Of a stretch of DNA of 30,749 bases, positions 141-24,559 are shown in pieces. The translations under genes and the position numbers were made by a program. The stretch's first letter is position 1. Each line of letters starts with the position of its first letter. The notes beneath the pieces were generated by a model. That model was not told the DNA's origin. It saw only the letters and a program-made list of their open reading frames with translations, and searched no databases. Source of the DNA: a virus; IMG/VR virus record IMGVR_UViG_3300021956_000054, positions 1 to 30,749 of that record. One strand, given 5' to 3'.

Positions 141-222
141 TGCGAGGGTAAGTGACTTGCTTTAGAGTAGCAACAATAGCTTCTGCTATTTGTTCTCTAA
201 GACTGATGTTTTGTTGGTTCAT
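1..222 (-). CDS. tail terminator-like protein, 5' part (gene crosses the window ends)
   Basis: This is the first 74 codons of a gene that continues without a frame break at 30609 when the overlapping ends are joined; the whole protein is 151 aa. The ATG at 222-220 overlaps the TGA of the connector gene (ATGA), which fixes the start. The pattern is an N-terminal helix with Ile/Val/Leu spacing, a Pro-Ala-Val strand near residues 48-51, alternating beta strands and an ending with aromatic residues. This fits tail terminator or tail-completion proteins (lambda gpU type), which cap the tail tube and join it to the head. Its place between the connector and the tail tubes supports this. Assignment is by profile resemblance and gene order only; a neck or minor tail protein is the alternative. 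Confidence 0.6.
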   Translation of the reverse strand, partial: MNQQNISLREQIAEAIVATLKQVTYPRISLATREPFEPDRIAITEFPAVLVQMDSEERETITMGAPGQGRRMGT

Positions 223-680
223 CTGCGGATTCTCAAGTAAGTATCAGGAAGTTTTTCAAAGGGTGCTATGACGCCATCTAGGTTAATGTCGTACTGCACA
301 CCTTCGCGAATCGCTAGATCCATCTCATGATCAAAGCGTTGGCGATAGTATTCCATCATTACTTGAAACTTATCCGCATCAGGAGTAAATTTTGTTAGTT
401 TAGGGCAAATGTGATAGGCCAGTGCGTGATAGACTGTGGCCTGTGTCCATTGATCTCCATTTAGACGATTAGGATCCATTATTGCCATTTGACCTACGAT
501 GGTAATATTAACTTTGAACTGCTTTGAATATTGAGGCCACCAGCGGACGGATAAGATGCGATTGACTTCAGTCTGGCTTCTAGCCAATTCAAAGTCCCAA
601 TCTAGGTTTCCGTAATCTTGTATTGTAGGTTCAACTTGGAGTAAGTCATCCAGAGTTGCATAGGTATGGTTTAATGACAT
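219..680 (-). CDS. head-tail connector (adaptor) protein
   Basis: A 153-aa, mostly helical, acidic protein. It is the first gene after the major capsid protein and stops in an ATGA overlap with the tail terminator. Size, helical content and position match the small head-tail adaptor proteins (HK97 gp6 / SPP1 gp15 class) that form a ring under the portal. A good ribosome binding site (GAAGGACAG) lies just before the ATG at 680. The length is slightly above the usual 100-120 aa of the class. The role is inferred from context and general character; no catalytic motif is expected or seen. Confidence 0.6.
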   Translation of the reverse strand: MSLNHTYATLDDLLQVEPTIQDYGNLDWDFELARSQTEVNRILSVRWWPQYSKQFKVNITIVGQMAIMDPNRLNGDQWTQATVYHALAYHICPKLTKFTPDADKFQVMMEYYRQRFDHEMDLAIREGVQYDINLDGVIAPFEKLPDTYLRIRR

Positions 681-1731: not shown

Positions 1732-2418
1732 TTATCTACCTTGTTGTGCCTTCCAATCCGCGTAGATCCTGCGATCGCCTGGCTTGGACATGTCTAACTT
1801 GGTAATATCTATTTTAGAGCTTGCTGAACTAGATCCCATTCCATTTTTTGTTTGAGTAGTACTTGGACCAGCGGCAACAAAGTGCGGGTTTGCATCTAGG
1901 AATGATTTCACTAGATCTTCTACACCCATTGGTTCTCCGTTATCTTTATATCGGGTTGTTCCATTGGTATCGACTACTTCTACCTCACCATCGCTGGTTA
2001 GTTTAATGCTGTTTCTCAACAAGGATTTAACTTGTTCAGGTGCAACGGCACGGTATTTGGCCGCTGTCTCTAGCAAAGGACTATCTACACGATATTGAGC
2101 AATGATTTGATCTCGTCTTGCAATCTCTGCGTCTTTTTTAGAAGCTAACTCTTTAAGAATATTTTCAAATTCGCCTTTGCCTGTTTGCTCTTCAAATCTT
2201 TTGGATTCGAACTGTTCCTTTAGTGCTCTAAGTTCTTCAGGGCTACCAAGTTCTGCATAGGCTTTGACTGCTTTGCGTTCAACGGCTGCACGGGTTTTAG
2301 CCATTGCATCGTCAAATTCTTTTTGTGAGTAAAACTTCTCTTGTGCCTGTCCTTCGCCATCTTGTGATGTGCCAGCGTCAGTTGCTGGTTGTTTGCTTGC
2401 CAATGTGTTTAAGTCCAT
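1732..2418 (-). CDS. capsid scaffold protein
   Basis: A 228-aa, strongly charged, mostly helical protein. It opens with a disordered Gln/Gly/Ser segment (residues 8-25), continues with a long coiled-coil-like region (about 33-108, rich in Glu, Lys and Ala) and ends with a Ser-rich linker and a basic tail. This is the usual build of scaffolding proteins, which fill the procapsid and leave before DNA packaging. It lies 18 bases before the capsid gene. An AGGAGG ribosome binding site precedes the ATG at 2418, one of the best in the window and consistent with high expression. Confidence 0.8.
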   Translation of the reverse strand: MDLNTLASKQPATDAGTSQDGEGQAQEKFYSQKEFDDAMAKTRAAVERKAVKAYAELGSPEELRALKEQFESKRFEEQTGKGEFENILKELASKKDAEIARRDQIIAQYRVDSPLLETAAKYRAVAPEQVKSLLRNSIKLTSDGEVEVVDTNGTTRYKDNGEPMGVEDLVKSFLDANPHFVAAGPSTTQTKNGMGSSSASSKIDITKLDMSKPGDRRIYADWKAQQGR

Positions 2419-2505: not shown

Positions 2506-2682
2506 TTATTTGTGTCCATGTTTAGATCCGGTGTGAGTCTTTGACCCCGTATAGCCATTAGCGTACATAGCCTTCATCTGCTTGATTGCACCTGCACGGG
2601 TAGGATATACATGTCCATGCGGTCCAAATTTATAACCCGGTTTCTTGCTGGGTCCCGGCATTGTTGTTTTCATTATTGGCAT
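2506..2682 (-). CDS. small basic protein of the head module
   Basis: A 58-aa protein, Gly/Lys/His-rich, with a central segment GPHGHVYPTRAGAIKQMKAM and repeated Gly-Ser-Lys-His near the end. The ATG at 2682 is chosen because CAAGGAGC sits seven bases before it; an upstream ATG at 2733 lacks a site and would overlap the previous gene more. The 5' end still overlaps the 62-aa gene by 53 bases in another frame. The function is not recognised. The high positive charge and the place between portal and scaffold suggest a nucleic-acid-binding or minor head protein, as inference only. Confidence 0.6.
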   Translation of the reverse strand: MPIMKTTMPGPSKKPGYKFGPHGHVYPTRAGAIKQMKAMYANGYTGSKTHTGSKHGHK

Positions 2683-2818
2683 TTGATTGCTCCTTGTTTT
2701 TCTTTCCAAAGATTCTGTCCCAGTTTTCTGCAAATTGATCTTTGTTTTCTACATCACGCTGGACATAGACTAATTCGCTCCATTTAATTTCACTGGAAGT
2801 TGTACGAATATCTCTCAT
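2630..2818 (-). CDS. hypothetical 62-aa protein
   Basis: It starts two bases after the Dps-like gene stops and overlaps the start of the next small basic gene. The N-terminal half is mixed alpha/beta; the C-terminal third (from about residue 40) is a disordered Asn/Glu/Gln-rich tail. No family is recognised. Tight packing and codon usage like its neighbours support a real gene. Confidence 0.55.
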   Translation of the reverse strand: MRDIRTTSSEIKWSELVYVQRDVENKDQFAENWDRIFGKKNKEQSNANNENNNAGTQQETGL

Positions 2819-2819
2819 A

Positions 2820-3317
2820 TTACATCTTTATTGGTTGAGTTTCTGGTTCGCCTATCTTGTCTTCAAAGGCCTGTTCTTCTGGACTTTCCATGCTAGCACC
2901 TATCATCCAGCATAGTTTTTCTATGGTTTGTAGATAATCAGCTAGAATATTTTGTAAGCCATAGCAGCGTTCTTTCTGGCACATATCAAATGCATCAGCT
3001 GCTGCCATTTTAATTGTTTCTAGGTCAGCATAAAGAATATTAACCATGTCTGATTCATCAGGAACCATCTTTTCATCTTTGACCTGACTTAGTTGTTGTA
3101 TGCGAGGTAAACTAAAAGGCACAACTTCTTTGAGTGTACGGATACCTTCAGCAATGGTATCAATATTTTCTTGTAGTTCTGTGTAGACTTTTTCAAACAA
3201 TTGATGCCACATAAAGAATTCGCAGTCTACTACATTGACATGGAAACCATGTGCTTTAGTATAGGCAGTAAAATTGTTGGCCCATACCACTTTCATTTGA
3301 TCTGATAATTTACTCAT
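2820..3317 (-). CDS. Dps-like ferritin-fold protein
   Basis: A 165-aa helical protein, the usual length of Dps (DNA-binding protein from starved cells). Residues H26, H38, E42, D53 and E57 reproduce the ferroxidase-site spacing of Dps (H-x11-H-x3-D/E-x10-D-x3-E), with Glu in place of the usual Asp at the third position. The motif D-T-I-A-E-G-I-R (53-60) matches the Dps D-x-x-A-E-R segment, and the C-terminal helix ends in WMIGASME, as Dps helices end in WFIE-type motifs. Dps proteins form 12-subunit shells that oxidise and store iron and shield DNA. The gene sits between portal and scaffold, so it may be carried in or on the head, or protect DNA during infection. The fold assignment comes from reading the motifs; role and activity are inferred. 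Confidence 0.75.
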   Translation of the reverse strand: MSKLSDQMKVVWANNFTAYTKAHGFHVNVVDCEFFMWHQLFEKVYTELQENIDTIAEGIRTLKEVVPFSLPRIQQLSQVKDEKMVPDESDMVNILYADLETIKMAAADAFDMCQKERCYGLQNILADYLQTIEKLCWMIGASMESPEEQAFEDKIGEPETQPIKM

Positions 3318-3318
3318 T

Positions 3319-4761
3319 TTATTGTCCTTGTTGTGTTATACCTTGTTCTGCTTGTTGTACTTCATTAGGAGTACCAACAGGCACTGGAGTAGGTGTTTGA
3401 TATTGCATTGGGTCAGTTAGATATTGTTCTAATTTTTCTTGTCCTAGAACAGTTTCCATAATCTCATAATCAAGCATACGCTGGAATTCTGGATCAGTGA
3501 CAGTGCTACGAGCATTGATAAGAACATCACTGTCATTACGCTTGTCTTGTAAGTGGAAACTATCTGGATAATTGATTTCACCATCCCAAACCTTACCTTG
3601 ATAAGCTGCAAAGAAATACCAAATATTATCTTCACATAGCTCTAGGTTATCTGCTTTGTCACTTAGGCGTGCATTTAGCATTTGGAATTCTGTTTCCATG
3701 GCCACACCACTTAGGGTATGTGTTGATAATGCACGAGCTGAACCTAGGTTAGCCATGCGGTCAATGGCTTCAACTCTATTCTTGATTGATTCATAGATAG
3801 CTGAAACATTTTGTCCACTAGGTTGTAATAGATATGGCTTCAAACCAGGATCAAGTGTGTCAGGTATTTGCACAATAGCACCGGCACCAGCAACTGCTTC
3901 TGTATCTGATGTCTTAACAAGGCTTGGGTGGCCACTGATGCGAATTGTCTGTTCTATTTCGCTGTATTCATTGTAGATAGCTCGCTGCACATCTGCAATG
4001 TCATCTATTTCACTAACACCAATACCACGCTTGGCGGATCTTTGACTGTAGCAAATAGTTACAGGAATATAACCTAGACCATTAACTTCTTCAATTTGAC
4101 TGGTAATCATTTGATCTTCTTTGTTGACCACACTAGTAACAATGCGATCTTTGTGCCATTCTTTAACAGTAAAAATATGACTGCGATCACTGTCTTCCAT
4201 GTATTTGAAATAGGTTAACTCATAATTGCCTGCTGGCATGCGTGTCCATTCCCAATCTAGAGCTGCCAATGGTGTTATCATACCAATGTAAGGTCTAGCA
4301 CCAATGCTCATTTCATCTGCTAGAGTTGCTGCACCTGTATTTGGCTTGACTAAGATTACCCATACATGACCAAAGACACCTGAGTAAATTGACACATCCT
4401 TCATAAAGCTATCAAAGCTCTGACCTTCAAAGTTTGCATCATCTAGGAAGTCTTGCAGTACAGGATCTCCTTCAAGGCTGGCAAAGTCTCTGTTAGGTGG
4501 ATTTCTAAACAAGAAAGCATTGTAAACTGAAAGCACACCTTTGGCATGGTTATCTAATGGAGTTGTCCACATACGAGTAATGTAGTCCATTTCGCTTTCA
4601 TTGGCATAGCGTGTTAGATATTGCCCTTGGCGATAAATTTCACCACCCATAAATGAGTTTAGGAGGAATCTCCAACGAGCATTTAAATTTTGATATTGTT
4701 CGTGAGTACCTAACAAGGCTTCATATTGCTTGCTGGCCCCTACTCCTGTATTACTTGGCAT
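3319..4761 (-). CDS. portal protein
   Basis: A 480-aa protein overlapping the end of the terminase large-subunit gene by 11 bases. Portal proteins form the 12-fold ring at one capsid vertex through which DNA is packaged and leaves. Supporting features are an N-terminal region rich in aromatic and Arg residues (YQNLNARWRFLLNSF, residues 23-37), a central mixed region, a long helical stem with repeated Ala/Leu/Asn near residues 330-380, and a Pro/Gln/Thr-rich disordered C-terminus. Length and order (terL, portal, scaffold, capsid) are typical. The pattern resembles portals of the DUF4055/SPP1 kind, but the subfamily is not certain. Confidence 0.85.
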   Translation of the reverse strand: MPSNTGVGASKQYEALLGTHEQYQNLNARWRFLLNSFMGGEIYRQGQYLTRYANESEMDYITRMWTTPLDNHAKGVLSVYNAFLFRNPPNRDFASLEGDPVLQDFLDDANFEGQSFDSFMKDVSIYSGVFGHVWVILVKPNTGAATLADEMSIGARPYIGMITPLAALDWEWTRMPAGNYELTYFKYMEDSDRSHIFTVKEWHKDRIVTSVVNKEDQMITSQIEEVNGLGYIPVTICYSQRSAKRGIGVSEIDDIADVQRAIYNEYSEIEQTIRISGHPSLVKTSDTEAVAGAGAIVQIPDTLDPGLKPYLLQPSGQNVSAIYESIKNRVEAIDRMANLGSARALSTHTLSGVAMETEFQMLNARLSDKADNLELCEDNIWYFFAAYQGKVWDGEINYPDSFHLQDKRNDSDVLINARSTVTDPEFQRMLDYEIMETVLGQEKLEQYLTDPMQYQTPTPVPVGTPNEVQQAEQGITQQGQ

Positions 4762-6043
4762 GTATATTATTCCTTAAATTATAATTCATTGTAGGTGATG
4801 CACCCTGTACTTGATGTCCCCAGGTTTTAGGCTGCGGCATGTTACCAGTGTCTCGTTTGATAGGGAAAAGGTAATCAACCATGTAGCCCAAGGCGTCCAT
4901 CATGTGATCATAACCACTTTCTTTGTCAGGTTGCACAGTGCCTTCCTTGTAGGTATGTCTCTCCAGACCTTCAATAGTGTATTTACACGATGGTAAAAGA
5001 AATAGGTGTTTAACACCGGTAGAATCACACAATCTAGAGTTGACTGCATTGATCCTATCTCTAACTGGAGTATGGCTGTGCGGCACCTTGACTACGAAGC
5101 CCGCATTTTGGAGGATGGTGACATCAGTAGCACCGCCTGCTGAGGTTTTTCGTTGGCGTGCTGCTGGGTCAGGGAATGCCCAGATTTTACTTTTGGGGTA
5201 TCTCGCCTTGATTTCATCCACCGCTTCTTGGGTGTTAGCAGAAAACATTCTAATTTCGTCGATGACACAGAGAGTATCTCCTTTTCTTACAGCAATTACC
5301 ACTGACATTGGGTCTATGTTAAAGTCCCAGCCAGTGTATAATATTGATAAATCTGTATCTGCAGGCTTGCCTTGTATGACATTTTCTTTGCGGTCAAAGG
5401 CGTAATAAATTCTACCTGCATAGGTTTCAAATGTTGCCATAAACTCCTGACGAAATGTTCTTTCATCAAGGTCTTGGCGTGCTGCATCTATTTCAGCCTG
5501 TGGTACATTGCCACCATCAATGGTTGTATAGGTAAAACTTGACCAACTGTCTGGACTTTCAAGAGGCATTTGATACAAATCATGAGCCCAGTTTGCCACA
5601 CCCTTAGGTGTGCCAATAAAAAGAGCACCACCTTGTTTGTCTGCCAAGGTTGGACGCAGAACTTCGTACCATGCTTCTGGATCTATATCTGCGAACTCGT
5701 CCATAACCATAAAATCAAGGCCAACGCCACGAAGACTGTCTGCATTGTCAGCTCCTTTTAGACTTATTATTGAGCCATTCTTTAAGATAACTGTTAGTTC
5801 AGCTTCATTGATCTTGGCCACCCACTTCTGATCCTGCAGTTTGTGCTTGAGTTTACGCCACACAATCTGCTTGGCCTGGCGGTAAGTAGGTGCAATGTAC
5901 CAAACTTCTTTGTCAGGCATGCGAGCGTGATAGCACAATTCGCGAATGGCAAGGTGTGTCTTACCCCATCGGCGACCAGCAATCACTACCTTAAAGCGGT
6001 GACTGTCTTTGACAACCTCATCCTGACACCAACTTAAGGGCAT
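4751..6043 (-). CDS. terL: terminase large subunit
   Basis: A 430-aa packaging motor with both expected domains. The ATPase has a Walker A loop AGRRWGKT (22-29), a Walker B FMVMDE (111-116) with catalytic E116, and a coupling motif GTPKG (144-148). The C-terminal RNase H-like nuclease shows acidic residues D240, D244, E263, D292 and the D379/D383 region, fitting a metal-binding site that cuts concatemers. The enzyme drives DNA through the portal into the procapsid. The start at 6043 overlaps the previous stop as TAATG, and the end overlaps the portal start. The small subunit candidate lies more than 10 kb upstream, which is unusual. Confidence 0.97.
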   Translation of the reverse strand: MPLSWCQDEVVKDSHRFKVVIAGRRWGKTHLAIRELCYHARMPDKEVWYIAPTYRQAKQIVWRKLKHKLQDQKWVAKINEAELTVILKNGSIISLKGADNADSLRGVGLDFMVMDEFADIDPEAWYEVLRPTLADKQGGALFIGTPKGVANWAHDLYQMPLESPDSWSSFTYTTIDGGNVPQAEIDAARQDLDERTFRQEFMATFETYAGRIYYAFDRKENVIQGKPADTDLSILYTGWDFNIDPMSVVIAVRKGDTLCVIDEIRMFSANTQEAVDEIKARYPKSKIWAFPDPAARQRKTSAGGATDVTILQNAGFVVKVPHSHTPVRDRINAVNSRLCDSTGVKHLFLLPSCKYTIEGLERHTYKEGTVQPDKESGYDHMMDALGYMVDYLFPIKRDTGNMPQPKTWGHQVQGASPTMNYNLRNNIHAK

Positions 6044-6381
6044 TAGGCTGAACGCTCTTCTATCTTGACTCTAAAACTTCTGCGATCTTGTAGGCCACTT
6101 GATGTGGTTATTGCTGCTGTTACAGTATAGATCTTACCTACTTGCCCACCGCTGAGTTCAACATAGGTAATATAACCGCTTTGAATACCGCTGTCTTCTT
6201 CTACAACAGGTGCAGGATCATTGGCACGAGCTTGAACTGAATAGCTGACCGCTGTGATTGTGTCACCTTCAGGTAGCCATTGGCTCCAATCCATTGAATA
6301 AATCAACTGTGCTAGGTTATCCTTAGGAATCCAAACGCCTGTGTTGTCTTTTTGGTATCCTGATCTTGTTAATGTTGTCAT
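6043..6381 (-). CDS. fibre-tail adaptor-like, Ig-fold protein
   Basis: A 112-aa protein. It opens with a short Trp-containing motif (DWSQWLPEGDTI, 31-42) and continues with beta strands including SGGQVGKIYTVTAAITTSSG (77-96) and a D-R-R-S-F ending. This is the layout of small phage proteins named fibre-tail adaptors, which carry an Ig-like domain recognising Gly/Thr strands. It sits between the 1336-aa fibre and terL and is joined to terL by TAATG. Assignment is by resemblance; it could also be a small head decoration protein. Confidence 0.6.
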   Translation of the reverse strand: MTTLTRSGYQKDNTGVWIPKDNLAQLIYSMDWSQWLPEGDTITAVSYSVQARANDPAPVVEEDSGIQSGYITYVELSGGQVGKIYTVTAAITTSSGLQDRRSFRVKIEERSA

Positions 6382-6384
6382 TTG

Positions 6385-9300
6385 TTAATCCTTAATGATA
6401 TTTACGCGAGTCTCTGCTTGTATGAGTAATTCGCGAGTTTCTTCTGCAATGGTAATTGTTCTTGTTTCTGCAGAAATCTTTAACTGTAATGCCGGATCAA
6501 TGTTAATAACACGACCAGCAACCAGCACAGTATCAAATGCTTCTAGGTGTACTTCAAATCTTACATAGACACCGCCTACTACAAATTCTGTAAATTCGCT
6601 TTGTAAATTAGCAGTGGCTAATCTTAAACGCTTGCCTGTGGCAGAAACTGTGGCAGTACTTGATAATGTTGCTTGACCAAATCTATTTCTCTTATTAACA
6701 GTAGTCTGTGTAAATGCTGAAAGCATTGTAGAACTAGTTTTAACATTCTTTTTAGCTACTATTGTTTCTGTAAATGCTGAAGTCAATGTAGCTTGGACAG
6801 CTTTTAATTTTGTAACATTGGCTGTTAGAGTCGCAGTAGATGTAACATTAGCTGCTAGACCTCTTAGTCGTTTATTAGTTGTAGAAACTGTAGCAGCACT
6901 GGTTAATGTGGCAGTGGCTTTGGTAAAGTTATAAGGTCTTGCTACCACTGTGACAGCACTGGTTAATGCAGCAGATCCAACAGCATCTTTTCTAGTAACA
7001 GCACTAACAGTAGCAGTTGATTGCAAGCTGACTAAAGTTCTACCAATCTTTGCCACAGCAGCCAATTCAGTGGCAAAGGCTGTTAATGCCGCAGTTGATT
7101 TCTGTATGCGTAATGCTGTGGCAGTTTCTGTAAATGCTGATGTTAATCCAGCAGTAGCTTTGGTAAAGTTATAAGGAGGTGCTGTTAAAGTAAATGCACT
7201 AGATACTGCACTGGCCATTCCTCTAGTGCGTTTGATAGTTGCAGATAGAGTAAATGCACTAGATGCAGCACTGGTAAATGTTTTATTAACTGAGCTTGCT
7301 GCAACATTAATTGAACTTATAGCTGTTGCTGTACAAGCCGAACTTCTAATTCTTGAGTTTGCCGCAGATAAACTTGCTGTGGTAGTTTGATAACTTTGAA
7401 GTTTTACATTTTTCTGAGCAACAATAATTTCTGTAAATGCCGAATTAATATTTGTAGGGTTTGGCGTCCTTAATCTATTTCCAGATGCAGTTATATTAGC
7501 TGTTGAAGATAATGCAGCATTATATAATTTTATTCGCTGGCCGCTGGCCGTTAAGGTAAATGCTGCTGGAATATCAGCACTTGCAATAGCACCAAGTACA
7601 AATGAGTAAGTTGTTCCAGTTGAAATAGCACTATTAATAGCAGAATATGTTTGAGTAAATGATCCATTATAAGGAACATAATATCCCGAAGCAGTTAATC
7701 CATAAGTATTAAGATTTGTTGCAGAAGCATCATCACCTGCAGTATAAAAGATTGCATCAGATACTGCGAATAAACTTGTTCCATCAATACTTGCAGATGT
7801 TCCTGATGGTTTAGTTGAAGAACTTGCTGATCCTGATGCCCAAGTTGTTGGCCAAGTTATTTGAAAACTATGATAGGTGTTTAAAGATATAGAATTAGTA
7901 TAAGAATTTGGTAAAGAGAATGTTATACCACGAGTTATTATTCTATATCTATTTGTTGAAACTTTTTCTAATTGTCTTAAATTAACATTCAAATAACTAC
8001 TACCAGACGAAATAGTTAAATCTGCATCTATTAATTCTGTTGCTGTGCTAAAATTTGATCGTGCAATTGATTGAAACCATCGAGCACCAGCAGATGCTGA
8101 TGTAGGTCTAAAATCAAGACTAAAAGTAAAATCTCTAAATGTTCGTGGAGTTGGATTTGGATTTTCATTGGCGTTTATGCTTGATGTAAAATTTGATGAT
8201 AAAATTCCAACACCACCTGCATATTTTCTTGTTAATGCTGCTGTTAATGTTGCTGTTGAAATTAAATTAACAGTTGCTAGATCTAAATCTAGTGCAAATG
8301 TAGTTTGAGTAAATGCCGAAGTTAATCCAGCAGATAATTGTTTAATTCTAACTGGTGTTGCTGTAACTGAAGCATTTGAAAATGCAGTTAATGTTTCTTC
8401 AGTGCTTTTTCTAGCTTGAGTTACTTGCGTAAATGCACTTGATAATGCAGCTAATGCTGGTTTAATACCAGCTGCTGGTGTAGCTGTAATTAAAGCAGTG
8501 CTGGTCAATGCTGCTTGTGCATCAGCAATCCAAGTCATGTCATCAGTATAATTTCCATCAAAGTGGAATAAAAATACTGTTGTTGAATCTTTACCTTGAG
8601 TTACAGGACCAGTATAGTTTCTTGAAACTCCTGTACCTTTGGCCATATAAAGTTCATCAATATAACCATAGAAACCATAACCATAACTATTGTTAGTGCG
8701 TGTTCCACCAATTCTTAAATTCTGTGATCTACCTGAAAGTTGAATTGCACTTGTATAGGTTGCACTAGTGGTTTGAATATTTGAATTATTTGCTGTTTTA
8801 TATTTTAGGCTAATAACACCACTTGTTCTACTTACGCTGATCCAGTTCCATTCATTTCTATCAAGCACAACTGTACTTGGGGCTAAAGAAAATAATTGAG
8901 TACTTGTATTATCAGCAGTGATTGTAAAATATGGATAACCACTGTCAGTTACAAAAATACCCCACCTACTACTTGTACTTGCTCCAGTATTTTCTAATTG
9001 AACAATTGGCCATAATCTACCATTTGCTGGCCATGTTGAATAAGTTGGACGCACCCAAGTTTCAATAACAAAGTCTTCATTGGTAGCAATTTCATAATCT
9101 TCACTGGCATTTAATAAAATACCATCAATGTTAATAATATCTGTTATGTCAAGACTATTAGTTCCGTATTTGAAATAAGGTACAAATGCAGGATTACCAT
9201 TAATTGCAAATATTTGTCTTGGACGCTTATTAGCAATATAAGCTGTGGTAGTTAAACTAAATGCAGATAATAGATTAGCACTAGTACCTTTTAATTTTAT

Positions 9301-10395
9301 TATATTTGCCGATAAGGTAAATGCTGAAGATTGATTTGAATTAATATTTCTAGTTCTAACAGCACTAGCAGATAAACTAAATGCTGATGATAATGCCGCT
9401 GGAGTTGATCTTAATCTATTAGCAGCAATGGTCATTGAAGCATTGGTAAATGCAGTCATATCAACGCCACGGATATCGCTGATAACACCAGACAATGTGG
9501 CAGTTGAAGTTAATGCTGCAAGACCTTTTCTTGTCACAACGCCAACAGCACTAACTGCGGCATTTGATGACCATGCCGCTGTAGTTGATTGAATTCTTAA
9601 TGCTGTTACAGAGACTGTGGCTGAACTAGATTGGTTTGAAGTTAATGCTCTAATTCTATTTGCATCTGCAGATACTGTAGCATTTGAGAAGGCTGTTAAG
9701 TCAGTACCATGGATGTTTATGATACTGCCAGCCAAAGTAAACGCTGAGGTCCAAGATCCTGATGCTGAAACAACAACTCCCCCTGGGATTCTTTCTGGAT
9801 CGCAATAGAATGCAGCGGTTGATGATAGTGCCGCTGATGTTCTGCGTAGATAATCTTCTGTTGATGTCTGAGTAAATGCTGATGATTGGTTTGCAACAAA
9901 TGATCTTATTCTTTCAATAGGTGTAGCCAAAGAAAAAGCCGCGTCCAATGCGGCTTGATCGTATCTAACCCTAAGATTGTCAGCAGCTACAGTAGCAGTC
10001 GAACTGGCAGCACTTGAATAATATCTCACACGCTCTGCGTTGGCAGTTATGGTATAGGCACTGGTGACTGCAATATTATTATCACGAAGACGCATGACCT
10101 GAATGGTCATAGTTGCCGAACTCAATGAATACAGGTCAGCACCTTCAATGTGACTAATTGTTGCACTTTGAGAGAAGGCTGAATTCAATGCTGCTACTGC
10201 CTGTGTTATCTTGGCAATTGACACAGATTCTGTAAACGCTGATGTCAGTGCTGCTGGTGTTGCTCTAAGTCTATTGGCTGTTATACTTGCTGTAAAGTTT
10301 GAACTAACAGCAGCTTCAGCATCAGCGGTATAGACAAAGTAACCAGTGTCAGGTGTAAAATATCCTGATTCGTAATAATATAAATCTTGTGTCAT
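6385..10395 (-). CDS. giant repetitive tail fibre with LamG-like domain
   Basis: A 1336-aa protein and the largest gene here. After a Tyr-rich N-terminus (5-22) come many copies of a roughly 22-25-residue unit of the form A-x-L-S/T-S-A-F-T-x-T-x3-A-x-R-I/L-R (residues about 25-390). A LamG/concanavalin-like domain follows (about 395-615, with Trp/Gly-rich strands and G-Y-I-D-E-L-Y). Then come more repeats, a second beta-rich island (about 745-905), another repeat block (to about 1290) and a tail of four E-T-R units. LamG domains bind carbohydrate, so receptor binding is likely; the repeats probably form a rigid beta stalk. It ends four bases before the adaptor gene. Repeat number likely varies between strains. 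Confidence 0.8.
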   Translation of the reverse strand: MTQDLYYYESGYFTPDTGYFVYTADAEAAVSSNFTASITANRLRATPAALTSAFTESVSIAKITQAVAALNSAFSQSATISHIEGADLYSLSSATMTIQVMRLRDNNIAVTSAYTITANAERVRYYSSAASSTATVAADNLRVRYDQAALDAAFSLATPIERIRSFVANQSSAFTQTSTEDYLRRTSAALSSTAAFYCDPERIPGGVVVSASGSWTSAFTLAGSIINIHGTDLTAFSNATVSADANRIRALTSNQSSSATVSVTALRIQSTTAAWSSNAAVSAVGVVTRKGLAALTSTATLSGVISDIRGVDMTAFTNASMTIAANRLRSTPAALSSAFSLSASAVRTRNINSNQSSAFTLSANIIKLKGTSANLLSAFSLTTTAYIANKRPRQIFAINGNPAFVPYFKYGTNSLDITDIINIDGILLNASEDYEIATNEDFVIETWVRPTYSTWPANGRLWPIVQLENTGASTSSRWGIFVTDSGYPYFTITADNTSTQLFSLAPSTVVLDRNEWNWISVSRTSGVISLKYKTANNSNIQTTSATYTSAIQLSGRSQNLRIGGTRTNNSYGYGFYGYIDELYMAKGTGVSRNYTGPVTQGKDSTTVFLFHFDGNYTDDMTWIADAQAALTSTALITATPAAGIKPALAALSSAFTQVTQARKSTEETLTAFSNASVTATPVRIKQLSAGLTSAFTQTTFALDLDLATVNLISTATLTAALTRKYAGGVGILSSNFTSSINANENPNPTPRTFRDFTFSLDFRPTSASAGARWFQSIARSNFSTATELIDADLTISSGSSYLNVNLRQLEKVSTNRYRIITRGITFSLPNSYTNSISLNTYHSFQITWPTTWASGSASSSTKPSGTSASIDGTSLFAVSDAIFYTAGDDASATNLNTYGLTASGYYVPYNGSFTQTYSAINSAISTGTTYSFVLGAIASADIPAAFTLTASGQRIKLYNAALSSTANITASGNRLRTPNPTNINSAFTEIIVAQKNVKLQSYQTTTASLSAANSRIRSSACTATAISSINVAASSVNKTFTSAASSAFTLSATIKRTRGMASAVSSAFTLTAPPYNFTKATAGLTSAFTETATALRIQKSTAALTAFATELAAVAKIGRTLVSLQSTATVSAVTRKDAVGSAALTSAVTVVARPYNFTKATATLTSAATVSTTNKRLRGLAANVTSTATLTANVTKLKAVQATLTSAFTETIVAKKNVKTSSTMLSAFTQTTVNKRNRFGQATLSSTATVSATGKRLRLATANLQSEFTEFVVGGVYVRFEVHLEAFDTVLVAGRVINIDPALQLKISAETRTITIAEETRELLIQAETRVNIIKD
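6528..10323 (-). repeat. degenerate coding repeats (SAFT units) of the giant fibre
   Basis: Repeats of about 66-75 bases encode the S-A-F-T / T-A-x-R-x-R unit, in two main blocks split by the LamG-like domain (about 8550-9215) and interrupted again near 7680-8160. Copies are diverged in DNA but keep the same residues, showing old expansion under selection. Recombination between copies may change fibre length. Confidence 0.75.
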
Positions 10396-15642: not shown

Positions 15643-16431
15643 TTAATTAATTTCAAATAAACTTGTAAACTGTGTATGGCGACGGCGTTCATTGGGTTGA
15701 AACCATAAATCCATTTCACCGCGGTACTTAACTCCATTATAGAGAAGTTCGCCATTAACTGTTGAAAATGCACCATAAAGTTCGCCACGCTTTTTACTAA
15801 CAACTGTGTAGTCCCATGAACGAATCTCTTCAATCATGTGCTCTGCTAGATAACCAAATGTACGGCATTGATGCCCCACAATCTCAAGTTGAATAGTTGG
15901 GCGTTGGCTTTGGATTAGTTGTTGTGCTCCGTCCAAGACAAACTTTTCATAACCCTCAACATCTACTTTGATAAAGCCCACATCACTAAAGTTGTAACTG
16001 TCTAGTGTTTCTATCTGCACAGAATATTTGTTCTTCTTTGTTGGGCGTGTGGATTTGACAATGTGATTGTGTCCACCATTCTTAGGATACTCAAGCATTT
16101 CCACAGTCTTAGTTGTTTCACCTAGGCCCACAGTGTACAAATTACAATTTTGAATCAGATTATCTTTTATGGTCAAAGACCAAAGCTGTTGTGCCAATGG
16201 TGTAGGTTCAAAGCATTCCACAACATCAAATACTTCTGCGTAATGCACAGCATTGCAGGCATTGTTTGATCCAATATCAATACAACGATGCCAGTTATCA
16301 ATCAAGGTCTGAGCAAAGAGCCAATTGGTCTTTTGGTATTGTCCGGCAGTGAGCCTTTCCTTGTAGAGACTATCACCTGACTCTATCCAGTAGACCTTGC
16401 CATTTTTGCTGTGTATTTGTTCTAGTGCCAT
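15643..16431 (-). CDS. FkbM-family methyltransferase
   Basis: A 262-aa class I SAM-dependent methyltransferase. Motif I is C-I-D-I-G-S-N-N (about 49-56), followed by the acidic strand end V-V-E-C-F-E-P (71-77). The later V-G-F-I-K-V-D-V-E-G-Y-E segment is the hallmark of FkbM enzymes. Members methylate hydroxyl groups of sugars or small molecules. Near the fibres, a role in changing host glycans or virion sugars is plausible but inferred. The ATG at 16431 is preferred over a TTG at 16518 because the longer form would overlap another gene. A perfect TATAAT lies six bases before the ATG, so the gene may have its own promoter and behave as a cargo gene. Confidence 0.85.
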   Translation of the reverse strand: MALEQIHSKNGKVYWIESGDSLYKERLTAGQYQKTNWLFAQTLIDNWHRCIDIGSNNACNAVHYAEVFDVVECFEPTPLAQQLWSLTIKDNLIQNCNLYTVGLGETTKTVEMLEYPKNGGHNHIVKSTRPTKKNKYSVQIETLDSYNFSDVGFIKVDVEGYEKFVLDGAQQLIQSQRPTIQLEIVGHQCRTFGYLAEHMIEEIRSWDYTVVSKKRGELYGAFSTVNGELLYNGVKYRGEMDLWFQPNERRRHTQFTSLFEIN

Positions 16432-16437
16432 AGAGTT

Positions 16438-16466
16438 ATTATATATGATGTATTTATGTAAAGCAA
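16438..16466 (-). promoter_or_regulatory. possible promoter for the FkbM gene; also TAAATAC copy 5
   Basis: On the coding strand TTGCTT is followed after 17 bases by a perfect TATAAT, which ends six bases before the ATG at 16431. A transcript would begin almost at the ATG, that is, leaderless. CATAAATAC (16450-16458) lies inside the spacer. The region is AT-rich, so chance is not excluded, and the -35 match is weak. Confidence 0.4.
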
Positions 16467-16481
16467 TTAAAAAGGGCTGAT

Positions 16482-16664
16482 TTATTGAAATATATCGCCA
16501 AACTCTAAAATTAACCAAATGTGTGTCTTAGAGCCTTTTTGGACGAAAAATGTTTGGTACGCTTCATCCCAGACTGAGTCTAGTCTAGAATGCAGAAAAG
16601 CCAATTGTAGTCCCAAATCAATTACATCAATGTAGTCCAGTCTGACCCAATCTTCTTTAATCAT
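16482..16664 (-). CDS. hypothetical 60-aa protein
   Basis: The ATG at 16664 overlaps the terminase small-subunit stop by eight bases (ATGATTAA), which favours it over an upstream ATG at 16712. The protein is hydrophobic-acidic and Trp-rich (Y-I-D-V-I-D-L-G-L-Q-L-A near residues 11-22, and an ending W-L-I-L-E-F-G-D-I-F). No family is recognised. Amphipathic rather than membrane-spanning character makes a holin unlikely. Confidence 0.5.
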   Translation of the reverse strand: MIKEDWVRLDYIDVIDLGLQLAFLHSRLDSVWDEAYQTFFVQKGSKTHIWLILEFGDIFQ

Positions 16665-23200: not shown

Positions 23201-24098
23201 ATATAGGACCTGAAACACCTGCAATATATTCTACAGTCTGATTGCATTTGGCAGCAGCTTTGGTAAAACTATCCCAGTCAATTTCTGTATTGCTTAGACC
23301 TTTACCATAATTAGGATTGCGTAGATAATCCAGCACAATTTCTGCTGGATTAGTTGAATAACGCACAGGTGCATTTGCATAACTGTAACTGTCAGGATTG
23401 CTGATAGTTAAACTGGCAATACGCTTGCCTAATAGACCTACTTGAACTGCTGGAATACCGCCACCAAATGGGTTATTATCGCTGTCTGCTTGAGTAACAA
23501 TCTGTTTCCATTCATAGCGAGCAAATAGAACTGCTAAGCCATTGAAATGATTGGTAGTTTTCCAACTTGGTGCTTCTTTAAGAATACTGTTGGCAGCAAT
23601 AGTTGTATCAGCAGGATTGCTAAACAGAACACCTGGATACCATTGCATTCTAACACGACCATTGTATTTGCCTTCTGTAATATTAACAATCTTACCTGCA
23701 TTTAGATCAGCAACAATGGTATTTGGCAATTGATTATCATCAATAAAAACTTCTCTTAGACCTTCTACAAGACCTTCAGCAAATACATAAGCTACCCATA
23801 GGTATTGATTGTTTGTTGAACCTGTTTCAACATAGACAACTGCACCCGCTAATTTTCTATAGCCATAAACTACAGGAATATCTACATTACTGCCTTGTTG
23901 TTGAACTAGAATACCTTGTTGCCGCGAGCTTTCCGAGGTATCTGAGGGCATATCCGGAACACCAAACAAGCCCATAAAAGGACTGGCAACGAAATTGATA
24001 ACTGCGGATACTACTGATCCAATGGCCTTGACAACACCTGTGACAACACCAACAACAGCCTTGACAACACTTTTAACTGCTTTGACTACGAAACTCAT
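20292..24098 (-). CDS. tail tip / central hub protein (lambda J-like)
   Basis: A 1268-aa protein in the standard place for the tip attachment protein. The N-terminus (1-46) is a striking amphipathic V-V-K-A-V / G-V-V repeat. Residues about 60-530 carry the conserved hub core: I-P-V-V-Y-G-Y-R-K-L-A-G (74-85), A-Y-V-F-A-E-G-L (103-110), and A-E-I-V-L-D-Y-L (252-259). A Thr/Asn/Gly/Pro linker (about 558-601) leads to beta-sandwich, fibronectin-III-like domains (about 605-1200) for host contact. The start overlaps the GNAT gene as ATGA. Host range probably depends on the C-terminal part, together with the fibres at 6-14 kb. Confidence 0.88.
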   Translation of the reverse strand: MSFVVKAVKSVVKAVVGVVTGVVKAIGSVVSAVINFVASPFMGLFGVPDMPSDTSESSRQQGILVQQQGSNVDIPVVYGYRKLAGAVVYVETGSTNNQYLWVAYVFAEGLVEGLREVFIDDNQLPNTIVADLNAGKIVNITEGKYNGRVRMQWYPGVLFSNPADTTIAANSILKEAPSWKTTNHFNGLAVLFARYEWKQIVTQADSDNNPFGGGIPAVQVGLLGKRIASLTISNPDSYSYANAPVRYSTNPAEIVLDYLRNPNYGKGLSNTEIDWDSFTKAAAKCNQTVEYIAGVSGPILTTNYVVDTGQTIFNNVKVLLTNMRGYLPYVQGKYKLRIEDAGNDTDILSGSASIAATFTKDNIVGDITYTGIERSAKYSQVVVSYVDPDQKWSVQQVVYPETEAERITFVTRDGGRENKAEITFPGCTNYAIAKDFAKLIFNKSRYQESCSFRADSSAFKLEPGDNVYIAANVLNFGTDPNAGAIPWRIVSIKLNNDYTFDIGCVRNPDFLYPHVRVGEIDQINPTYVPKGAEIYYPTNPTGVPVGLVPPTNAVLPATGSTNTTTNPTTTNPTTDGGGNGGTTNNTTTNTSPAPAPTTTATLNHVIKLDKASYVVENGQIYALLEFTQPDSSLYSGVIFYYKRNIASETVWKLYESNDVPGIGQKITAKIGPLIAATYSLKTRVKYSTQQQSTLAGTFSLNVVANTNENPTDYAETIGSGWTPNTTPLPNSRDTIVREMTAATILSGGQPTNPRTLSVTVTQDILNKPINGYVDGMKIYYKSSAATYWKESSVQFAQPYNEGTAQTFTLPFGLGVPSYPTTPGTADNYDFIFRFKYNDGTESTLQYRILDVNVEYSAFGTYNFNPFSEKIPLPQEKVTDFVFVTETNAPPGSVADPRDMTIGVTAISNSTSLPAKIIFAITPPNAANLPNWYGVRIYSRPVIEGTNPAFTSTDIIPVPSDATGRYLSLAINYDEIREYVLVPVVDYSGTKTEAKQAWYGRGYVHNRTSSTDYPSTGNWLSTFNLQLLDTNVALSNISSAFPQTDPTIMVQSWTRVQQDNTGTDQTKTYYELVFSHQHITNYNLIEIYRRSYIAPNVSSIGTGTTSSLYYGMGQWEKVTVTTTAPTGTVTVNLRSSIGYAEFDPYYNVPGYTGRTLVNSLYTTNKPLAPSFSSGSYDEFIVVVKSNGNYSAKALRLPPITATPLSSRVNGIAVNKPTTVTVADYNTTTVGYLRRLTESRSSIANANLLANSSRTAGYTPPTPSTGPSVV

Positions 24099-24559
24099 TC
24101 AGGTAACTCCTTAACCATTAATAATGCTTCTTTGAAGCCAAAGTGTTCATAGAGCTTTTTTAATCTCGCAGGATCAATGCCTATATCACCAGCAGTTAAT
24201 TTTGTGCATTTATTGGCCTTAGCCCAAGCAGTAAATGCATCTAATAAACTTCTAAAATTATCAAGATTTCTATGACTTTCTAACAAGAATACCATGTCAA
24301 TATGTCCATGAAATATATCTTTATTCCAAGGACATTGTGTAACACAACCTGCAATTAGGCCTATGGGTCTTTGACCTTCATAGGCATTCATCCATACATA
24401 TTCATTATGAGTTGCGTACAATCGAATAAATTCAAGCACACTATTCTCATCATATTCTTCACTGATTGAAGGAATACTTTCAACAGCTTGATCTACATAA
24501 TAATTGAAGAGATTGATTGTGGCATCCATCTCTTGGGGCAATATTTTTCTTACAATCAC
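24095..24559 (-). CDS. GNAT-fold acetyltransferase-like protein in the tail tip module
   Basis: A 154-aa protein with the GNAT layout: an N-terminal V-R-K-I-L-P-Q-E strand, a central strand G-L-I-A-G-C-V (about 67-73), a helix around residues 101-118, and motif B L-Y-E-H-F-G-F-K-E (136-144). The usual acetyl-CoA loop (R/Q-x-x-G-x-G/A) is replaced by a sequence without glycines (E-S-H-R-N-L-D-N), so catalysis is doubtful. It is coupled on both sides (GTGA and ATGA), between the hub and tip genes, where many phages carry a peptidase. It may be a structural or assembly factor that kept the fold. The start is GTG. Confidence 0.7.
   Translation of the reverse strand: MIVRKILPQEMDATINLFNYYVDQAVESIPSISEEYDENSVLEFIRLYATHNEYVWMNAYEGQRPIGLIAGCVTQCPWNKDIFHGHIDMVFLLESHRNLDNFRSLLDAFTAWAKANKCTKLTAGDIGIDPARLKKLYEHFGFKEALLMVKELPE

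Follow-up and report, generated by a model that had tools for sequence, protein, structure and literature searches.

The window analyzed here, a 30,749-nucleotide stretch of viral DNA (IMG/VR record IMGVR_UViG_3300021956_000054), encodes a Dps-family ferritin-like protein between the portal and scaffold genes of a tailed-phage head module, and this protein ends in an acidic extension that is found in all intact head-linked relatives and in none of the others examined. The explanation that we favor, and to which we give about an even chance, is that a Dps shell is docked by its tails to the procapsid or virion, where it would keep iron and peroxide from harming DNA in or near the particle. More tentatively, at a little under an even chance, the cages may be enzymatically active, docked to the head via a dedicated C-terminal tail that possibly mimics a scaffold segment, and may give a virion that detoxifies iron and peroxide, a natural phage counterpart of ferritin-loaded encapsulins.

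The genes of the module lie on the minus strand in the order terminase, portal, Dps, 62-aa ORF, small basic protein, scaffold, and capsid (group A is a set of relatives described below):

4751..6043, minus strand: terminase large subunit (PF03237, 1.6e-14; PHROG_2, 1.5e-46)
3319..4761, minus strand: portal protein, directly upstream of Dps (PHROG_145, 8.6e-52)
2820..3317 (stop codon included), minus strand: Dps-family ferritin-like protein, 165 aa (Pfam, PHROG, PDB, AF2, Foldseek, and VIA)
2630..2818, minus strand: 62-aa small ORF, no family match, found in several relatives
2506..2682, minus strand: small basic protein (PHROG_31267, 0.0023), syntenic in group A
1732..2418, minus strand: head scaffolding protein (PHROG_2303, 1.5e-5), aligning with annotated HTVC phage scaffolds
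847..1713, minus strand: major capsid protein, HK97-type (PF25209, 4.9e-9; PHROG_267, 1.5e-10)
219..680, minus strand: conserved protein after the capsid gene, syntenic in relatives; by position, probably a head completion protein

The portal and scaffold matches confirm the location given for the gene in a preliminary description of this DNA. The Dps ORF is read 3317→2820, and the plus strand of the same stretch is full of stops. Gaps of 1 nt separate the portal stop from the Dps start and the Dps stop from the start of the 62-aa ORF, giving the region an operon-like layout, and an AAGGAC stretch upstream of the Dps start presumably acts as its ribosome-binding site. A promoter scan returned candidates no better than shuffles, and terminator-like sites numbered 8 versus 4.4 expected, with 2 on the coding strand, both within genes. 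The small basic protein is conserved from an internal ATG of a 75-aa ORF, which in its entirety has a pI of 10.4. Elsewhere on the minus strand, the tail gene module includes a gene for a GNAT acetyltransferase (24095-24559; PF00583, 1.2e-7), an FkbM-type methyltransferase is encoded at 15643-16518 (PF05050, 2.4e-11), and a 1336-aa protein with recurring “LTSAFT” units (6385-10395), which has no Pfam match and is highly variable across relatives, adjoins a gp77-like fiber-tail adaptor (6043-6381; PF23148, 1.9e-18) and is probably a tail fiber.

Relatives were gathered by scanning IMG/VR with Dps and portal alignments. The order portal–Dps–scaffold–capsid is also present in 33 other viral contigs, which form two lineages with portals only about 49% identical; both flanks of Dps are visible in 32 contigs. 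Group A, with portals 69–90% identical to that of the window, has exactly this order, while in group B (portal about 49%) several small ORFs separate the portal from Dps, which is followed by a small basic ORF, scaffold, and capsid. Every portal-clade contig that covers the sequence past the portal has Dps there. The Dps proteins of groups C, D, and E (34–47% identity) are encoded outside the head module: close to tail-fiber-like genes, in a set of small ORFs upstream of the terminase, or next to nucleotide-metabolism genes. Phylogenetically, the head-slot Dps proteins make up one side of a branch (support 90/91) in a wider phage clade (100/99). Short ORFs resembling the 62-aa ORF of the window (...NWDxxFKKKE...) were also observed close behind Dps in two unrelated phages with nucleotide-metabolism genes (L137:2903-3076 and L138:7682-7768), and an ORF of this type is possibly a recurring Dps neighbor.

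In bacterial genome assemblies, the portal profile found no match, and the sole match of the Dps profile was a partial Dps of this clade (L085:5714-5815), located at one end of a contig assigned by binning to uncultured Legionella. That contig is possibly a phage contig and offers a weak hint of the host; on these results, we rejected the identification of a host or prophage in bacterial genomes.

Family profiles, a search of solved structures, the predicted fold, and conserved ligands together identify the window protein as a Dps, in agreement with what had been proposed for positions 2820-3317 from inspection. The protein matches Pfam Ferritin PF00210 (E = 1.4e-14, 54.7 bits, above the curated cut-off of 24.5), PHROG_3636 in a profile search (2.6e-27), and the sequences of PDB entries 8ff9 (3.3e-17) and 3iq1 (1.9e-13), a similarity well outside what chance would produce. 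An AlphaFold (AF2) model of the monomer, built from 20 related sequences (mean pLDDT 85.8, pTM 0.80), displays a four-helix bundle (residues 3–28, 34–60, 88–116, and 119–142) with the short BC helix typical of Dps (residues 70–76), a Dps-like last helix, as the preliminary description had noted, and no fifth C-terminal helix within the core. Beyond the core, the model places a low-confidence helix at residues 146–155 in a tail of low pLDDT that is disordered from residue 158. The top Foldseek matches are Dps proteins (8ff9, 1.1e-7, RMSD 1.5 Å), dozens of solved dodecameric Dps superimpose at 1.4–1.7 Å, and VIA-align gives Z of about 20–22 for dozens of Dps chains. P. aeruginosa PA0962 Dps (8ff9), V. 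cholerae Dps (3iq1), and B. subtilis MrgA (2chp) have this fold in common with the window protein (1.4–1.6 Å); the PF00210 Dps also resemble it in the BC helix and the ligand spacing, and differ in that the window protein has about 24 additional acidic C-terminal residues, Val instead of the usual Trp after the first ligand His, and a place in a phage head operon. From its family, it would be expected to form a 12-subunit shell and to perform iron chemistry. The MuF domain PF04233 is not among its Pfam matches, nor was it found in six Dps-carrying relatives. Among the BFVD matches of the model are several uncultured Caudovirales proteins (290–763 aa) that include a domain like Dps, and three carry the name “Prohead protease”. 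A fusion of Dps to a head protein, if real, would favor head targeting, but we could not confirm one, as the contigs examined contain only stand-alone Dps.

Five residues, H26, H38, E42, D53, and E57, occupy the ligand positions of the Dps ferroxidase site:

3240..3242, minus strand: codon of ligand H26, invariant in 39 aligned Dps
3204..3206, minus strand: codon of ligand H38, invariant in 39 aligned Dps
3192..3194, minus strand: codon of the third ligand, E42, Glu as in 8ff9, 3iq1, and 2fjc
3159..3161, minus strand: codon of ligand D53, invariant in 39 aligned Dps
3147..3149, minus strand: codon of ligand E57, invariant in 39 aligned Dps

Their spacing (+12, +4, +11, +4; pattern H-x11-H-x3-[DE]-x10-D-x3-E) is exactly that of Dps, as the preliminary description had stated. 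Its further suggestion, that the change from Asp to Glu at the third ligand may alter metal use, did not hold up: Glu is ordinary at this position, and among phage Dps the residue varies (E/Q/K/S/G/D). In the 39-sequence alignment, Glu occupies position 42 throughout group A as well as in 8ff9 and 3iq1, group B has Gln or Lys instead, and the remaining sequences show Ser, Gly, Gln, Glu, or Asp. The complete five-ligand set is kept in group A, window included. The residue after the first ligand His is Val in the window and group C versus Trp in bacterial-type Dps. The ferroxidase site of Dps is shared between two subunits (as the title of PDB entry 1qgh also states); hence, a single monomer need not bring the five ligands together, and the earlier proposal that their lying far apart in a predicted structure would refute the assignment was mis-specified. 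Head-slot Dps is under purifying selection (dN/dS 0.01–0.14, some dS saturated), which marks the protein as important without telling a docked from a soluble Dps.

The feature that sets the head-linked proteins apart is the C-terminal tail:

2823..2888, minus strand: acidic C-terminal extension, residues 144–165, proposed docking tail
2838..2855, minus strand: conserved tail motif IGEPET ([LIM]GxPE[ET])

We compared 66 Dps sequences of the same wider clade (65 contigs plus the window), 34 head-linked and 32 not. The [LIM]G-x-PE[ET] extension, about 22 residues long, is present in 32 of the 34 head-linked proteins, the exceptions being one at a contig end (L106) and one that is frameshifted (L068), and in 0 of the 32 located outside head modules. 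As a control, bacterial-type phage Dps (sets of 66 and about 60) terminate within about 1–7 residues past the last helix, a single odd frame (L194) aside. The tail is the mark of one clade, so its link to head location represents at most one or two evolutionary events and may represent a single one. The window tail has a net charge of −5 in its 22 residues, the N-terminal 12 residues have a net charge of +1, and the whole protein is acidic (pI 4.56); the basic flexible N- or C-terminal tail of E. coli-type DNA-binding Dps is lacking, and DNA condensation via such a tail is not favored. The role in the head envisaged in the preliminary description is partly supported: membership of Dps in the head becomes more likely given the conserved synteny and the restriction of the tail to head-linked copies, whereas shielding of DNA by direct binding is not favored (pI 4.6, no basic tail).

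A segment resembling the tail motif is also found in the scaffold:

2233..2250, minus strand: scaffold segment LGSPEE, like the Dps tail motif

The motif, defined on Dps tails, recurs in the scaffolds of most phages with a head-slot Dps as LGSPEEL or, in group B, LGDPEEL (the scaffold of L005 reads LGDLEE). It was not seen in the scaffolds of the Dps-less HTVC phages and DSL-LC06 or, Dps tails aside, in other ORFs of the loci gathered by then. Control ORFs totaling 156,071 aa contain 2 occurrences, in near-identical proteins, corresponding to about 0.003 expected per scaffold length (228 aa). The resemblance, a post hoc comparison of sequences, is suggestive of mimicry of the scaffold by the tail.

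What occupies the portal–scaffold slot varies among phages. Cultured pelagiphages HTVC026P, 111P, 112P, and 202P, related in portal and capsid, encode a 329–608 aa protein of unassigned family there and no ferritin-like gene, and DSL-LC06 has two short ORFs. As these HTVC phages and DSL-LC06, all portal relatives, are without Dps, Dps is not essential to this head type. A MuF protein (PF04233, 1.8e-20) fills the slot in Microcystis phage Mae-JY09, which has a related capsid protein. A MuF identity for the HTVC slot proteins found no support in profile searches: an “NCRH” stretch looks alike by eye, but they match neither PF04233 nor a profile of the Mae-JY09 MuF protein. The HTVC026P protein (gp30; L082:6384-8210) consists of a common 340-aa part and a C-terminal HExxH metallopeptidase-like domain with a weak zincin-type Pfam match, an arrangement like that of a head protein extended by a cargo domain. 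In SPP1, it is the portal that targets the MuF protein gp7 into the procapsid (PMC6316719). By analogy, the slot is plausibly a place for head cargo, without this being proof; Dps would be like gp7 in gene slot and as a proposed procapsid-associated protein, and unlike it in having no MuF domain and an unrelated fold. The same head-gene stretch of SPP1 also holds inserted genes, ORFs 8-10 (PMC6316719), and unessential ORFs (PMC6316719; PMC5576092), and phage heads tolerate such unrelated insertions, a point against docking.

The MuF protein in the Mae-JY09 slot, the similar LG[SD]PEE segment of the scaffold, and the Gln or Lys at the third ligand in group B would all suit a purely structural or assembly protein, in which the Dps bundle serves as scaffold, spacer, or portal-bound minor head protein and the iron chemistry is secondary or lost. 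We consider this unlikely, as an inert bundle would need no ligands, yet four are invariant overall and all five are present in group A, including the window.

Phage Dps genes as such are common, with at least 540–590 matching stretches per scan, tail-less where examined outside the head-slot group. PHROG_3636, the phage “DNA binding protein” (phage Dps), is the same family as the window protein, and the Dps of the three isolates examined, Salmonella phage 7-11, Streptomyces phage Kenrey, and Synechococcus phage S-EIVl, are encoded in metabolic or other non-head regions and, unlike that of the window, have no tail. Dps genes outside head modules, beside ThyX and other nucleotide-metabolism genes, indicate that an intracellular role is common, which counts against head docking, and published readings for gut and Lactobacillus phages are likewise intracellular (PMC8008677, PMC6669764). 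The window protein could accordingly be a soluble, late-expressed enzyme that takes up iron and peroxide during host collapse and protects replicating or newly packaged DNA; being encoded in the head operon would then only ensure late, high expression, and the tail would be incidental. The intact enzyme site and the hundreds of phage contigs with Dps, tail-less in those examined, fit such a role, which we regard as the chief rival, though at below even probability, since it leaves unexplained both a tail conserved in all intact head-linked copies and only there, and a constant portal–scaffold place across lineages whose portals are about 49% identical.

Many larger T4-like freshwater contigs (L219-L296; e.g., L243:2007-9576 and L219:189-10161) encode a Dps without the tail shortly after virion structural genes (phrog_1645), among proteins starting MLTFRGWITE, MKTFSSWLKE, and MNKFTQYLAE. 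These N-termini presumably resemble the T4 capsid targeting sequence, and this set may represent a second, independent link between Dps and phage heads. For T4 internal proteins, a short terminal capsid targeting sequence brings a foreign protein into the head (PMC3012670); that sequence is T4's own, conserved, and N-terminal, while the window tail is C-terminal and unrelated, so that only the idea is shared.

A closer parallel to docking by a C-terminal tail is found in encapsulins, where the Dps-related cargo IMEF is not loaded into its HK97-type shell unless a C-terminal peptide is present (PMC6668986). Like IMEF and ferritin-like encapsulin cargo, the window Dps is encoded beside an HK97-fold shell and has a conserved C-terminal peptide after a linker. 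Here, however, the shell is not one lacking portal and terminase but a genuine phage capsid whose portal, terminase, and scaffold genes lie alongside, the loading is a proposal, and the tail (GEPETQPIKM-like, [LIM]GxPE[ET]), conserved nonetheless, is unlike the IMEF targeting peptide (...GFTVGSLIQ).

In the mechanism that we favor, a Dps-type iron/peroxide cage protein would have been recruited into the head-morphogenesis operon of a tailed-phage lineage. It would form the usual 12-subunit shell, the flexible tails of which would dock it to a procapsid component, be it scaffold, portal, or capsid, so that Dps would be carried in or on the virion. The docked enzyme would oxidize Fe(II) with peroxide and so curb the Fenton damage that packaged DNA, or the particle at entry and release, would suffer. 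We infer virion packaging from the gene order and the tail. A folded cage about 9 nm wide would hardly pass the tail, which makes a role in the particle or its assembly more likely than injection into a new host. An iron-bearing decoration on the particle exterior could instead aid adsorption via iron uptake systems (“Ferrojan horse”), as a ferritin-like protein found by mass spectrometry in a Vi01-like phage was interpreted (PMC10892097). For the window, this is highly improbable: the Dps gene lies in the head module and not the tail module, nothing in the window points to tail or receptor interaction, and no pathway dependence was seen in the one host tested (PMC10892097).

Phage Dps genes are already known, but the head-slot, tailed form appears to be new: in the open literature, we came across no report of a Dps that keeps a place between portal and scaffold and bears a conserved tail of its own, and, PMC10892097 apart, none of virion-located Dps. 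Should the tail indeed dock Dps to the procapsid, there are phages whose particles contain an antioxidant or iron-handling enzyme of their own. This would be relevant to how virions survive where the water contains much iron or reactive oxygen, would bear on the debate over phages as carriers of iron, and would add a new natural peptide for head targeting. It would also link encapsulins, whose HK97-fold shells hold ferritin-like cargo, with a viral capsid that behaves in a comparable way.
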